Positions 4,360-36,026 of a stretch of DNA of 64,000 nucleotides are shown here, in pieces. A program made the translations under genes and the position numbers. The notes under the pieces are model-generated. The model had not been told where the DNA came from, made no database searches, and saw only the letters and a program-made list of their open reading frames with translations. The stretch covers positions 620,001-684,000 of the forward strand of contig CP079860.1 of assembly GCA_019339365.1 (NCBI GenBank), given 5' to 3'. The DNA comes from Vibrio neptunius. GTDB taxonomy: Bacteria > Pseudomonadota > Gammaproteobacteria > Enterobacterales > Vibrionaceae. The first letter of the stretch is position 1; every line of letters starts with the position of its first letter.

Positions 4360-5124
4360 TTACACATCCTTTTTTTCTATTGATTCCTTCAATAGCTCTA
4401 CTGAGGCTTTCAGCTCTGAGATCTCTGTACGTAAGTTAGTTACCACATGTGCATCTTGCTTGTCCGAATCTTCTTCTAAGAACCAAGATGCGACAAAGCC
4501 AGTAAAGGTACCAAATAGGCCTACACCCGCCGTCATCAGCACAGCCGCAACAATTCTTCCTTCATATGTCACTGGATAGAAATCTCCATAACCTACTGTC
4601 GTGATCGTCACAAATGCCCACCAAAGGGCATCACCTGCATTATGGATGTTTGAACCTTCGATGCCTTTCTCAAGTTGGAGCATAGCGATAGCACCAAAGA
4701 TAACGAGTATCACTGATACTGCTGAGACCAGGGAAAACGTGCCCTGAGTCTTGTTGCTAAACAGGTAGTAAAGAAGCATTTTGGTTGACCTAACAGCCCT
4801 TAACATTCGAAGGACTCTAACCACTCTTACGATTCTTCCGTAACGAAACATATCTAGCATTGGGATACTAGATAAGAGGTCTATCCATCCCCACTTCATA
4901 AATTGCTTCTTACTGTCGGCCCGTTTAAACCGAATGAAAAAATCCGTAAGAAACACCACACATATAATGTTGTCTGTAATTGCCAGAATTTCAGTCACAT
5001 CAGAAGGTAACTTGAACACGCTTTCAGCAAACAATGCTCCTAGAACGTATATTGATAGGACCAAAGTGAAAAACTGAAAGGGACCAAAATCAATGGCGTC
5101 CTTTTCTATTGATTCATTTGTCAT
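4360..5124 (-). CDS. Voltage-gated-type potassium channel subunit
   Basis: A 254-aa six-helix cation channel. The arginine-rich S4 helix (RYGRIVRVVRVLRMLRAVR) is at residues 95-113 and the K+ selectivity filter TVGYGD is at 176-181, between the pore helix and S6. A short C-terminal coiled coil (about 230-250) probably tetramerises it. I chose ATG 5124 because the frame's earlier TTG has no better signal, and ggataag lies just before the ATG. It follows the prophage repressor gene on the same strand, behind a strong terminator that ends only about ten bases before the start codon. Expression by terminator read-through from the repressor promoter is therefore possible. The place next to the repressor suggests a lysogenic-conversion or exclusion role, which is inference. 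Confidence 0.9.
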   Translation of the reverse strand: MTNESIEKDAIDFGPFQFFTLVLSIYVLGALFAESVFKLPSDVTEILAITDNIICVVFLTDFFIRFKRADSKKQFMKWGWIDLLSSIPMLDMFRYGRIVRVVRVLRMLRAVRSTKMLLYYLFSNKTQGTFSLVSAVSVILVIFGAIAMLQLEKGIEGSNIHNAGDALWWAFVTITTVGYGDFYPVTYEGRIVAAVLMTAGVGLFGTFTGFVASWFLEEDSDKQDAHVVTNLRTEISELKASVELLKESIEKKDV

Positions 5125-5134
5125 TTTCTTATCC

Positions 5135-5164
5135 AATAAAAAAGGCGACCCGAAGGTCGCCTTT
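5135..5164 (-). terminator. Rho-independent terminator between repressor and channel genes
   Basis: On the minus strand a 10-bp stem with a four-base loop (aaaggcgacc on the plus strand at 5141-5150, pairing with 5155-5164) is followed by a run of six T. It sits directly after the repressor stop codon and directly before the channel's ribosome-binding site. Confidence 0.85.
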
Positions 5165-32688: not shown

Positions 32689-33063
32689 TCACTCGAAGTA
32701 TATGTCTTTACTCCGGTCAAATTTTCTAACTATCGCACCAGCTTCCGATGGGTGCTGCTGAGGAGTCAACAAAGTATTCCAAAATGTATCATCCCAGCTA
32801 TCACCTTTCAGATAGAGATATCTACAGATTTTCACCAAATCCAATCGACTCCATTGACTAGCAGAAGAACGTACTTTTAGGTCATTTTCCAACTGATAAA
32901 ACGTTGGTATGGCCTTGGCTTGCCATGCTTTATCCAAAAGCTCATTTAACTCGTCAACTTTGTCAGATGATATGAGAAAGCTGTTAGCATAAACTTCATG
33001 CGGCATTTCTATAGTACTTCCATCGGTATCCTCAAAGAGCGGATACACGCCGTTGTACCAAGG
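32689..33063 (-). pseudogene. C-terminal remnant of an unknown gene, fused to a GNAT fragment
   Basis: A leftward frame encodes at least WYNGVYPLFEDTDGSTIEM and then a helical, acidic protein ending KFDRSKDIYFE. Its reading frame is already open at the junction near 33060, and no good start exists, so it looks like the C-terminal piece (about 120 codons) of another gene. It does not resemble the C-terminus of the GNAT protein whose N-terminal part lies directly upstream. Confidence 0.5.
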
Positions 33064-33404
33064 CCGCTTCCGCGCTGGTTGGCATCGACCGCCAAACGCG
33101 TGATTTTTAACGCGGGTAGCGTCGCATATCGGTTCGCCTTTGGGCAGTCATCTATAACATACGCATCGCCAAGATCGACCTCACTGCTTGTCAGCGTCAT
33201 ATAGGCTAATACTTTACCTGTTTCTTCATCGCTTTCATTGCGCTCAATGCAGACATAACTAATGCCAATCATTGACTCTTGAAAGTGACAAGCTTGTTTT
33301 TGTAGGAAGGTCTTTAAAGGAGCGAAGGCGTGATCGCCAGAACGAAACTTTTTGCAGTTATCTGAAGGGGAAAGTTTTCGAATCGAATAGTGAGCAGTTC
33401 CCAT
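33009..33404 (-). pseudogene. GNAT acetyltransferase toxin, truncated in its acetyl-CoA site
   Basis: The first about 115 residues match GNAT toxins of Vibrio-type toxin-antitoxin pairs: an N-terminal FRSGDHAFAPLKTFLQKQ segment, the strand GKVLAYMTLTSSEV, and ALKITRLAVDANQRGSGLGT, the acetyl-CoA-binding motif. Right after GLGT the protein departs from the family and stops 14 residues later, while the other frame opens into an unrelated sequence. No homopolymer is at the junction, so a deletion or recombination is more likely than a read error. Such toxins acetylate aminoacyl-tRNA; this copy should be inactive. Confidence 0.7.
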
Positions 33405-33418
33405 ATGGCAGGGAACGA

Positions 33419-33580
33419 CTATGCTTGCGCGGCGCGCATTTTAGCTAAGGCTTCACGACCACGTGCTAGCGCTTTCTTGGCATGTGGGTTAACTTTTGCT
33501 TCGCGAACCTGCTTTGCAAATTGCTTAGCATCTTCACCTGACAGCTCTAGTCGCCCAAATGTACTACTCTTTATTGCCAT
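33419..33580 (-). CDS. Antitoxin partner of the broken GNAT toxin
   Basis: A 53-aa protein (MAIKSSTFGRLELSGEDAK, then a basic tail). It sits 14 bp before the GNAT gene on the same strand, the order and spacing of GNAT toxin-antitoxin modules. I chose ATG 33580 because it gives the compact product; an earlier start adds a poorly conserved extension. It appears intact although the toxin is not. Confidence 0.6.
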   Translation of the reverse strand: MAIKSSTFGRLELSGEDAKQFAKQVREAKVNPHAKKALARGREALAKMRAAQA

Positions 33581-33745
33581 TATCGATGCCCTTTCGGTTA
33601 AAATGGTCACTCCGTGTCTGCCTGATCTCACTTCCTATCCGTGAGTCTGACAGACGCCTTAATTTTCTTTGATCCTGACGACGCTGTCAACGTTACTGGT
33701 TATTTTTTACACTGACCTCGGCCGACATAAGCCGACTACAACCAA

Positions 33746-33775
33746 TTGACACCTCTCAACAACCTACGCTAACCT
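33746..33775 (+). promoter_or_regulatory. Probable promoter of the first C4-like RNA
   Basis: ttgaca (33746-33751) lies 18 bp before taacct (33770-33775). The second copy has ttgact at 35096-35101 and taacct at 35120-35125 with the same 18-bp spacing, although the spacer and -35 flank differ. Conservation of only these two hexamers supports the promoter. Confidence 0.6.
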
Positions 33776-34087
33776 ACCACTGCACTGGCAAAATCCAGTG
33801 TCGGGATTGGTACCCCGTTTTTATTTCCACAGGCGCATAGACGCCAGCTTTTTGCTGGTTTTTTTATGTGCGGCTTCGGCACACCTAAACATGGTGGTTT
33901 TGCTTAACGATTAGGCAAAATACATCTGAATTATGGTGGGCTGGGCAGGGCAGCTTCGGCTGGCCGCGACCTGTGGAGCGGTAGTACCAACCTTGTTCAG
34001 TTCACCACCCGAAGATTGGTACCTTTGTGTGGTGATTCAAATTGAATCCACAGGAGGCCATCATGCCAAATCTAACCATTCTATCTA
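33768..34087. repeat. Immunity-leader repeat, copy 1
   Basis: This stretch is nearly the same as 35118-35441. Identity begins at gctaacctaccac and ends after the ninth codon of the antirepressor frame (atctaaa). It contains a promoter -10 box, a small terminated RNA, a short leader frame and the start of an antirepressor gene. The 1.03 kb between the copies carries an unrelated membrane-protein gene. Confidence 0.9.
33782..33865 (+). ncRNA. C4-like antisense RNA, copy 1
   Basis: A short RNA of about 84 nt is expected from the promoter at 33746-33775 to the terminator gccagc-ttttt-gctggt plus T tail (33843-33865). It begins with the hairpin cactgg-caaaat-ccagtg and carries the box gattggtacc (33805-33814). 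That box is complementary to gtagtaccaa (33981-33990) in the downstream message. This is the arrangement of phage P1/P7 C4 RNA, which represses an antirepressor message in trans. The family assignment is by structure and context. Confidence 0.65.
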
Positions 34088-34088
34088 A
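33933..34088 (+). CDS. Possible leader peptide before the truncated antirepressor (copy 1)
   Basis: A 51-codon frame begins MVGWAGQLRLAATCG and overlaps the antirepressor start. Short frames beginning MVGWAGQ are common in Icd/Ash-like phage leader regions. In copy 2 the frame begins with the same residues but shifts and stops after 27 codons. Its translation could couple to the antirepressor, as icd does in P1. Support is limited. Confidence 0.35.
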   Translation: MVGWAGQLRLAATCGAVVPTLFSSPPEDWYLCVVIQIESTGGHHAKSNHSI

Positions 34089-34098
34089 AAGATCATAA
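34063..34098 (+). pseudogene. Truncated antirepressor start (copy 1)
   Basis: ATG 34063, with a strong caggagg site, encodes MPNLTILSK, identical to the first nine residues of the intact antirepressor at 35418, then RS and a stop. The gene was cut exactly where the duplication ends. Confidence 0.75.
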
Positions 34099-34137
34099 GT
34101 GTGTGTCACATCAGTTACTTCTACTAATTGATGGGAC

Positions 34138-34986
34138 TCAGCTAACTGTTCTTAACTTACTGAAAAACATTTTATTTTTCCTAGCAATAAAAAACCCGAA
34201 TAACGCACCTAATGCTAGGAAAAACAAGTTAATAAATGTGCTGTATTCATAATCACCTATTACCACGGTGCTTAGGGTAATCACTGAAGCCCCAAAAAGG
34301 GTAGTAGCTGTAGAACCTATCAAAATTATTTTTAACGATTTACTAGAGTATTCCCAAGTTTCAGTAAGAAATTCCGAAAGCAAGCAATATGCAGTGGCAC
34401 ACCCGAAAATAACTAATAATTTAAACATATAGAGAGCTATATTCATTTTAGGTTTAGACTCGTCACGTCTATCTATATCTCTGATTCCTGCGATACGGGC
34501 GCTAGGTTCTATAGATTCCACTAAGCCCGAAGTGATGATTCTAATCATGTAGGAGTCTTCAGGGTTCATTAGAAACTTATCAATTTCAATGCTCTCCCTG
34601 TCAAATGAAAAACCAACCTTAAGAGATTTGGGAATATTTTGAATAACATAGACCTTTTCGATATTCCCACCTCGTAACTTAAATGTTAGAGCTTTTTCAA
34701 AATCGTTGGCGACTATTGGCTGGTTTCCTGAATTCACCACTCGATAGTCGAACATATAAGGCGTATCAACTTTTTTCCCATCAATATATACATCCAGATC
34801 AGGGGAGCCTGTCAATTGCTGTACAGAAGATAATTCAACTGACGAGACTAAGTTTACTGACAGTGACTTATCGTTACCGCTAGACTGCAAGAAATAAATA
34901 AGAATAGGTATCGCAACTGTTGCTATTAATGCCAAAATTGGAATGTAATTGGAGGTTCTATAGGATTTCGTAGCGTTCGTGTTCAA
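34138..34986 (-). CDS. Unknown membrane protein between the two immunity leaders
   Basis: A 282-aa membrane protein. One helix at about residues 14-33 (IPILALIATVAIPILIYFL), a large extracytoplasmic domain of about 150 residues rich in beta strands, then three helices near 186-205, 220-243 and 250-268, and a basic tail. I recognise no family. It lies opposite to the leaders, in the segment that separates two copies of the antirepressor control region, which is typical for exchangeable prophage cargo. A superinfection-exclusion or abortive-infection role is possible but unproven. An inverted pair tatcata/tatgata (near 35030-35060) lies before its start. Confidence 0.7.
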   Translation of the reverse strand: MNTNATKSYRTSNYIPILALIATVAIPILIYFLQSSGNDKSLSVNLVSSVELSSVQQLTGSPDLDVYIDGKKVDTPYMFDYRVVNSGNQPIVANDFEKALTFKLRGGNIEKVYVIQNIPKSLKVGFSFDRESIEIDKFLMNPEDSYMIRIITSGLVESIEPSARIAGIRDIDRRDESKPKMNIALYMFKLLVIFGCATAYCLLSEFLTETWEYSSKSLKIILIGSTATTLFGASVITLSTVVIGDYEYSTFINLFFLALGALFGFFIARKNKMFFSKLRTVS

Positions 34987-35117
34987 GATGGCCCCTTCAA
35001 ATCAATACTATACACATTGCGTATGACAACCATATCATAAATATCATAGGATTATGATAAAGCCATATAAACACAGTCCACTTACCATAATTTCGTTGAC
35101 TCCTCCCGTCATTCATA

Positions 35118-35441
35118 GCTAACCTACCACTGCACTGGCAAAATCCAGTGTCGGGATTGGACCCCCGTTTTATTTTCTCAAGGCGCATAAACGCCAGCTT
35201 ACAGCTGGTTTTTTTATGTGCGGCCTCGACACACCTAAACATGGTGGTTTTGCTTAACGATTAGGCAAAATACAACTGAATTATGGTGGGCTGGGCAGGG
35301 CAGCTTTATGCTGGCCGTTTCCTTGAGAGCGGTAGGTCCAACCCTGTTCAGTTCACCACCCATTGATTGGACCCTTTGAGTGGTGATTTAGCAAAACTAG
35401 ATCTCAAGGGGGCTAACATGCCAAATCTAACCATTCTATCT
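35118..35441. repeat. Immunity-leader repeat, copy 2
   Basis: The second copy of the unit at 33768-34087, in direct orientation. Differences are scattered in loops and in the small leader frame, but two-base changes in the three complementary boxes compensate each other (see findings). This copy leads into the complete antirepressor gene. Confidence 0.9.
35132..35215 (+). ncRNA. C4-like antisense RNA, copy 2
   Basis: The same layout as copy 1: promoter boxes at 35096-35125, hairpin cactgg/ccagtg, box gattggaccc (35155-35164), and terminator ccagct-tac-agctgg with a T tail (to 35215). Its box matches ggtccaa (35335-35341) in its own downstream message rather than the copy 1 target, so it should have a different specificity. 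Confidence 0.65.
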
Positions 35442-36026
35442 AAAGATATTCGTTTACTCGATAACTTGTACTCGTTAAATGATTTACATAAAGCGAGTGG
35501 TAGAGCACCTAAGCACCAACCAGCTCTGTTTATGCAGAACCAACAAACAAAAGCACTCATCTACGAAATTGAAGGTGATCTAGGAATTCCTAGATCAGTA
35601 GTGACACAGCGGGGCGGAGCAAACCGAGGAACTTGGGTCTGCAAAGAACTGGTCTATTCCTACGCCATGTGGATCAGCCCTAAATTCCATCTGCAAGTGA
35701 TTCGCGCTTTTGATGCCATGGTCACTGCCCCACTACAAGGTGTGACTCTCAGCGAAAAACAGGCGCGTTTCGCCCAATGCACCTTCAACCAAATGGACAA
35801 GCTGAAAGCGCGCTATCAGCTCACCAGACAGCAGCATCAAGTGATGGTGGAACAAGTTGCGGCAATGCGCACTTTCTGCGACCAAATGGAAGCTAACCTG
35901 AAAAGTTTTAAGTCCGACTTAGACGGTGATTTAGATATCGTGAACCATATTCATTTATACAAAGGAATGGTTCTAGAATATCAGGGCGCGAGAGAGCTGA
36001 AGGACTTCATCGAACGTGGTCATTAG
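35418..36026 (+). CDS. KilA-N-type phage antirepressor
   Basis: A 202-aa protein. Residues 10-100 form a KilA-N DNA-binding domain: LYSLNDLHKASGRAPKHQPALFMQ, then GTWVCKELVYSYAMWISPKFHLQVIRAFDAM. The C-terminal half is helical. Such proteins lift repression and start lytic growth. ATG 35418 is preceded by caaggggg. The control region before it is the C4-like leader. A terminator follows the stop. Confidence 0.85.
   Translation: MPNLTILSKDIRLLDNLYSLNDLHKASGRAPKHQPALFMQNQQTKALIYEIEGDLGIPRSVVTQRGGANRGTWVCKELVYSYAMWISPKFHLQVIRAFDAMVTAPLQGVTLSEKQARFAQCTFNQMDKLKARYQLTRQQHQVMVEQVAAMRTFCDQMEANLKSFKSDLDGDLDIVNHIHLYKGMVLEYQGARELKDFIERGH

Follow-up and report, generated by a model that had tools for sequence, protein, structure and literature searches.

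In phage P1 the antisense RNA C4 is described as acting through two boxes, a' on an upstream site and b' on the ribosome site itself (PMC5320573), and in both P1 and P7 the specificity of C4 is reported to be set by a few bases (PMC5320573, PMC12197685). For IsrK of Gifsy-1, the middle part of the RNA is reported to base-pair with the sequence that comes next in its own read-through transcript; the available text of that report likens the locus to seqA/CI of P4, not to C4 (PMC4825925). Profiles for C4 and isrK are said to pick up relatives of CI and seqA (PMC10111431), and the C4-like small RNAs of Acinetobacter baumannii are presented as expressed and apparently processed, with variable a' loops (PMC5320573). 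C4, IsrK, heteroimmunity and multi-copy C4 are already known. C4 is characteristically released by RNase P from a precursor transcript and represses the antirepressor, IsrK activates translation of its read-through message in trans, and heteroimmune units of the P1/P7 type leave each other's targets alone. Among the titles listed by literature searches, outside which most subscription journals lie, none concerns Vibrio families of such RNAs or a two-specificity prophage; this argues only weakly that none exist. Within that scope, the new elements are a prophage with two specificities, an exact heteroimmune partner, two-box covariation among paralogues and the scale of the phenomenon in Vibrio. 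C4 and IsrK, which a recent source still lists apart in its available sections (PMC12197685), would on our reading be parts of one two-box module.

Based on our observations, we propose that a Vibrio prophage carries two IsrK-C4 units, of which unit 2 would control a KilA-N antirepressor and unit 1 would represent another specificity without a gene of its own; we give this overall explanation a probability of roughly three in four. Both units lie at the right end of the prophage, whose gene content is P2-like, in the 64,000-nucleotide stretch of Vibrio neptunius DNA analysed here (the window, whose numbering is used throughout). The two leaders, which a preliminary description had recognized as copies of roughly 320 bp, occupy 33768–34089 and 35118–35444 and align over 327 bases with 85.9% identity; the section that begins with IsrK and ends at the start codon has 41 differences in 286 aligned sites. 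The units are spaced 1350 bp apart on the same, forward strand, and in each the order is promoter-like hexamers, IsrK with its terminator, C4, Shine-Dalgarno sequence and start codon. The hexamers (TTGACA 33746–33751 and TAACCT 33770–33775 in unit 1; TTGACT 35096–35101 and TAACCT 35120–35125 in unit 2) sit just upstream of the Rfam isrK starts at 33782 and 35132. That they are shared by the copies, as first described, can be seen by eye, but a generic promoter scan did not list them at either unit.

The covariance-model search proposed with that description places an IsrK-like RNA (RF01394) and a C4 RNA (RF01695) in each leader, all four matches being above the gathering score. IsrK-1 is a short terminated RNA at 33782–33865 (isrK match 33782–33864, 65.3 bits, gathering 50), with box a1 at 33805–33814, b1 at 33826–33833 and an intrinsic terminator at 33843–33859; IsrK-2 extends over 35132–35215 (match 35132–35214, 62.1 bits, gathering 50), with a1 at 35155–35164, b1 at 35176–35183 and a terminator at 35193–35209. 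The terminator scan found four in the region, against 2.2 expected in shuffles. Both IsrK sequences fold only moderately better than shuffled ones (z −1.69 and −1.93), and the best predicted fold of IsrK-2 is without the middle hairpin of the isrK family. The model c4-a1b1 (RF03163) remains below its cut-off at 33769–33821 and 35119–35171 (43.7 and 38.8 bits, gathering 46.7). C4-1 lies at 33929–34012 (65.7 bits, gathering 45; z −3.08), with b' at 33970–33977 and a' at 33981–33992, and C4-2 at 35279–35363 (68.1 bits, gathering 45; z −3.98), with b' at 35321–35328 and a' at 35332–35343. Model alignment and folds give the three-stem C4 structure with a' and b' in loops for both units.

The downstream targets follow immediately. 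In unit 1 the target spans 34014–34057, with a2 at 34014–34023 and b2 at 34047–34054 running into the Shine-Dalgarno sequence at 34052–34057; in unit 2 it spans 35365–35412, with a2 at 35365–35374 and b2 at 35402–35409 overlapping the Shine-Dalgarno sequence at 35406–35412. Behind unit 2 stands an intact antirepressor-type gene of 202 amino acids (35418–36026, forward strand) with a KilA-N domain (PF04383, 72.3 bits) and matches to PHROG families for transcription regulation and anti-repressors. In unit 2, a' and b' are complementary to sequences that precede an antirepressor gene, the match of b' lying at the ribosome site; in unit 1 such sequences are followed only by a gene stub (34063–34098, forward strand) of 11 codons, MPNLTILSKRS, and a stop. 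The terminated RNA of about 84 nt had earlier been taken for C4. The terminators were found by the scan; the assignment is rejected, since Rfam places isrK there and the antisense C4 is the structure that holds the former box B. With the short RNA being IsrK, RNA 1 should titrate C4 or activate, as is reported for IsrK of Gifsy-1 (PMC4825925), rather than repress a reporter bearing box B.

How does this locus compare with the described systems? It shares with C4 of P1 and P7 the covariance-model family, the pairing of the a' and b' loops with targets before an antirepressor gene, the location of b' over the ribosome site and a specificity that depends on a few bases, as far as the published descriptions consulted go. 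Unlike P1 and P7, the Vibrio prophage has two specificities, each behind a terminated IsrK-like RNA, and one of its units is geneless. The short terminated RNA with an antirepressor-type gene downstream resembles IsrK of Salmonella Gifsy-1 (RF01394), whereas here the gene behind C4 is the antirepressor itself, a difference drawn from the available part of that report (PMC4825925). An antisense RNA that pairs with one copy upstream and one copy downstream of itself is described for CI, seqA and seqC of P4 (PMC4825925); P4 relies on transcription termination before replication genes, whereas here b2 falls on the Shine-Dalgarno sequence. The Group 1 C4-like RNAs of A. baumannii are likewise many per genome, but their targets are not identified in the available text of that study (PMC5320573), whereas most of the sampled Vibrio units have their own IsrK copy and a Shine-Dalgarno target.

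We name the boxes in the order used for P1 (PMC5320573), so that A, B and C of the preliminary description become a1, a' and a2; these were found in both copies with the sequences given there. Side-by-side comparison of many units revealed a second compensating set, absent from that description, in which b1 belongs to IsrK, b' to the second hairpin of C4, and b2 lies over the Shine-Dalgarno sequence. The set b1/b'/b2 reads TCCACAGG/CCTGTGGA/TCCACAGG in copy 1 and TCTCAAGG/CCTTGAGA/TCTCAAGG in copy 2, so that it differs between the copies and pairing is kept. The claim that two-base differences preserve the A-B and B-C pairing was borne out: contiguous Watson-Crick runs inside each copy are 7 (a boxes) and 8 (b boxes), whereas neither C4 forms a run longer than 4 with the IsrK RNA or the downstream targets of the other copy. 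Few-base loop changes matched by target changes, the kind of difference that marks P1/P7-type heteroimmunity, are found between these related units. Relative to the C4 scaffold, the boxes of the two copies diverge 3.2-fold. The b' energies on the targets separate own from cross clearly (own −18.3 and −17.9, cross −9.5 and −9.8). The a boxes separate them weakly by energy, less well than by run length, both on the targets (own −9.3 and −11.2, cross −5.8 and −8.5) and with IsrK (own −15.3 and −19.2, cross −11.9 and −15.1). In particular, a' of C4-2 reaches −15.1 with IsrK-1 and −8.5 with target 1, against −15.3 and −9.3 for C4-1 itself. This closeness, together with a spacing of only 1350 bp on one strand, would suit a two-input switch in which the units regulate each other, with IsrK-1 titrating C4-2 or C4-1 repressing the KilA-N gene. 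The cross runs of no more than 4 nt in all boxes and the far weaker b' cross energies argue against such a switch, and we consider it improbable.

Is the pairing conserved beyond this pair? The comparison drew on 246 of 247 C4 units, taken from the matches listed; the 246 come from 50 Vibrio genomes, the 247 from 51 of the 55 C4-bearing genomes (G147, G081, G146, G175 and G223 lie outside the 246-unit set). Run lengths were determined for the 244 of 246 units with full flanks, which gave 163 after merging of identical a'/b' pairs, and the upstream slice, wide enough for b1 in units with short spacers, was applied to own and cross pairs alike. Own runs of at least 7 nt occur at a1 in 156, a2 in 136, b1 in 119 and b2 in 115 of the 163 units, which is 71–96% by box, against 4–12% for cross-pairing (494, 361, 360 and 176 of 4075 random cross pairs each, or 12%, 9%, 9% and 4%). 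The covariation for which the preliminary description had proposed to test homologous leaders is present, own pairing lying far above cross-pairing, and Rfam, pairing and these 163 units together support its claim of two C4-type units of different specificity in one prophage. In a duplex-energy permutation on 146 units (those left of 226 after merging and removal of short flanks), the observed mean was reached in 0 of 10000 permutations for all four boxes. Among 87 units of viral and named genome loci, kept from 105 loci after 22 places had been set aside as not C4-like, runs of 7 are reached by a2 in 73 and by b2 in 65; another parse gave no unit in L345, L347 and L348. Over the 244 units, 18 keep only the IsrK pairings by the run measure, some of these being small-protein units in which a2 still pairs with one G-U. 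In ten large sets of small-protein units, box divergence is only 1.0- to 1.7-fold that of the C4 scaffold. The idea that units of one genome avoid sharing a specificity was also considered and is unsupported: of 1525 pairs within genomes 40 are cross-compatible, as are 42 of 3000 pairs sampled from different genomes (218 of 246 units), and scaffold-matched pairs show no clear deficit of shared specificity within genomes. With hundreds of natural variants and their predicted on- and off-targets, the specificity rules of C4 become testable.

We infer from these features that transcription would start at IsrK, most transcripts ending at the IsrK terminator and some reading through. C4 would be cut out of the read-through transcripts; its a' loop may then bind a2, and its b' loop the b2 box on the Shine-Dalgarno sequence, so that the gene behind is shut off. 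The a1 and b1 boxes of IsrK could compete for C4 or re-open the message. In unit 2 the gene under control would be the KilA-N antirepressor. Since IsrK-1, its terminator and C4-1 look intact, C4-1 could act against a newly arriving phage of the old specificity by silencing its antirepressor; a V. profundi prophage offers an exact example of such a phage.

Among loci from named genomes, the one in V. profundi TP187 (L130) shares its a' and b' with copy 1, to which it aligns over 326 bp at 93.3% identity, compared with 84.7% over 275 bp for copy 2. Between C4 and the start codon, copy 1 and the V. profundi unit agree at every position (0 differences in 138 nt), and IsrK plus spacer shows 10 differences in 148. 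By contrast, identity between the tail modules of these prophages is 68.5% across 10.7 kb. The gene behind the V. profundi leader is a Rha-type antirepressor (PF09669), not KilA-N, and the S24-type CI of the window has no match at E 0.001 in the V. profundi genome (G123). Judged by their sequences, the two prophages share the unit-1 code but have different antirepressors and, within the scope of the searches, different repressors; they form a concrete pair for antisense heteroimmunity outside P1/P7. In the window, an ion-channel gene (4360–5136, reverse strand; PF00520, PF07885) adjoins the prophage CI repressor.

Unit 1 is an orphan, its stub being followed by an inverted gene of 282 amino acids (34138–34986, reverse strand). 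This gene has no match in Pfam, NCBIfam or PADLOC, a weak match to PHROG 29378, a family of unknown function, and one weak relative in 226 other genomes of the genus. The nine codons after both leaders are identical (MPNLTILSK); copy 1 stops two codons on and copy 2 continues. In the simplest history, the inverted gene and leader 2 appear to have entered the former gene of unit 1 at its ninth codon, which would have brought that gene under a new specificity. In other Vibrio phages, inverted genes stand just before such a leader (unnamed in PQ189285 and PQ189295, a PD-T4-9 system in PQ189358), which points to a slot where genes come and go. Three small inverted genes precede unit 1 in the window (32689–33631, reverse strand), one with an acetyltransferase-type PHROG match, which would place unit 1, too, behind an inverted-gene slot. 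A KilA-N-like unit in G106 mixes the sets, with the a2 core of copy 1 and the b2 core of copy 2, which shows that leaders recombine.

What, then, is unit 1? It may be a mere relic, a functionless leader of the former specificity left when the inverted gene and a new leader recombined in. The 11-codon stub, the gene turnover before leaders in other Vibrio phages and the mixed box sets all fit this reading, for which the chances are only just short of even. Both RNAs, the terminator and the six boxes are nevertheless intact, and the stretch from C4 to the start codon is unchanged relative to the prophage of another species; a recent swap would give the same intact picture. Alternatively, unit 1 might be kept as active immunity in trans against phages of the unit-1 code that the resident CI would not stop. 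We hold this tentatively, at somewhat less than an even chance: C4 and both downstream targets match exactly a V. profundi prophage with a Rha-type antirepressor, in a genome without a match to the window CI. Against it, C4-1 has full matches among 333 entries only to itself and to one foreign place, which is counted there twice, as G123 and L130. At most one foreign match is usual (the median per C4 is 1, with none for 118 of 246), so that, taken by itself, the V. profundi match may mean no more than a recent leader in common. The preliminary description had offered both readings; for action in trans there is now a candidate in V. profundi, the action itself being conjectural, and an immunity-swap relic is as compatible with the evidence, so that we regard the two as about equally likely.

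The V. neptunius genome has eight C4 matches. Six further IsrK-C4 units (L017–L022; C1 at 1926522, 2366126 and 2833505; C2 at 693224, 1206790 and 1217924) each belong to a roughly 1-kb repeat that includes a 164-aa protein, two of the six being shortened, and their isrK scores of 39.8–45.2 bits are below the gathering score of 50. The 164-aa protein matches nothing in Pfam, PHROGs or NCBIfam. In these six units the downstream sites are unpaired with their C4, and the C4 boxes diverge 8.9-fold relative to the C4 scaffold. In the 164-aa family as a whole (11 units), runs of 7 occur in nine units at a1 and nine at b1, and in none at a2 or b2. Because the 164-aa and IsrK-only units keep a1/b1 and lose a2/b2, some units seem to retain C4-IsrK pairing on its own. 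The IsrK-C4 pairing is broken in two of the eight units of this genome, with both boxes mismatched at C2:693224 and the a box at C1:2366126; leaders in which box A changes without box B, which the preliminary description had named as evidence against its reading, therefore occur as exceptions. These two broken pairings and the missing downstream pairings of the six 164-aa units count against the overall explanation, as do the weak discrimination of the a boxes by energy and the modest IsrK folds.

C4 is found in 55 of 227 genomes of the genus and in 24 of 369 sampled genomes of the class, this one included. Recounts at E 0.001 in eleven genomes gave 27, 23, 22, 21, 18, 16, 14, 13, 13, 8 and 7 matches, a few of them below the gathering score (2 of the 27). 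By single-linkage clusters, the genes downstream of 226 units are proteins of about 64 aa (146), an antirepressor cluster (29), proteins of about 54 aa (23), the 164-aa type (11) and 11 others, and 6 units have a short or no frame. The searches placed in no known family the small proteins behind the largest set (146 of 226 units), where the role of a phage immunity RNA becomes a question in itself. Five small proteins behind C4 units gave only sub-threshold matches in Pfam and NCBIfam; one used as query found 16 relatives, all unnamed Vibrio proteins. Neighbouring units recur. On the viral contig L061, two units 656 bp apart share b' and have different a sets, each pairing with its own a1 (7 and 6 nt) and a2 (7 and 7 nt); in G041, two units of the antirepressor cluster with different boxes are 784 bp apart. 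Adjacent same-strand pairs within 3.5 kb number 30, in 11 genomes, and 0 of the 30 are cross-compatible, against about 0.8 expected at the within-genome rate (218 of 246 units). We speculate, well short of conviction, that geneless IsrK-C4 units serve as an RNA immunity memory, in which an old C4 is retained when cargo and leader are exchanged, specificities accumulate and the lysogen is protected from phages of former or foreign specificity; in Vibrio, the same two-box code would have spread into families, with up to 27 largely orthogonal units per genome driving unannotated small proteins. This is an unlikely extension of the proposal.

Several further arrangements were observed. In G061 and G133 (L157, L163), C4 units are arrayed at intervals of about 2.2 kb, every unit accompanied by a small frame and an inverted gene for about 380 aa. 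In G133 and G201 (L161, L164), C4 small-protein units are flanked by genes on both sides, the starts of which look like those of what we take to be VgrG-type secretion genes. Leader-like places, numbering one to six, are also present on large plasmids of V. coralliilyticus, V. tubiashii, V. europaeus and others (H53–H65), mostly without an annotated gene under the match. Outside Vibrio, a genome of 1.5 Mb has four C4 matches within 1.4 kb on one strand (G489:C9:1700–3092).
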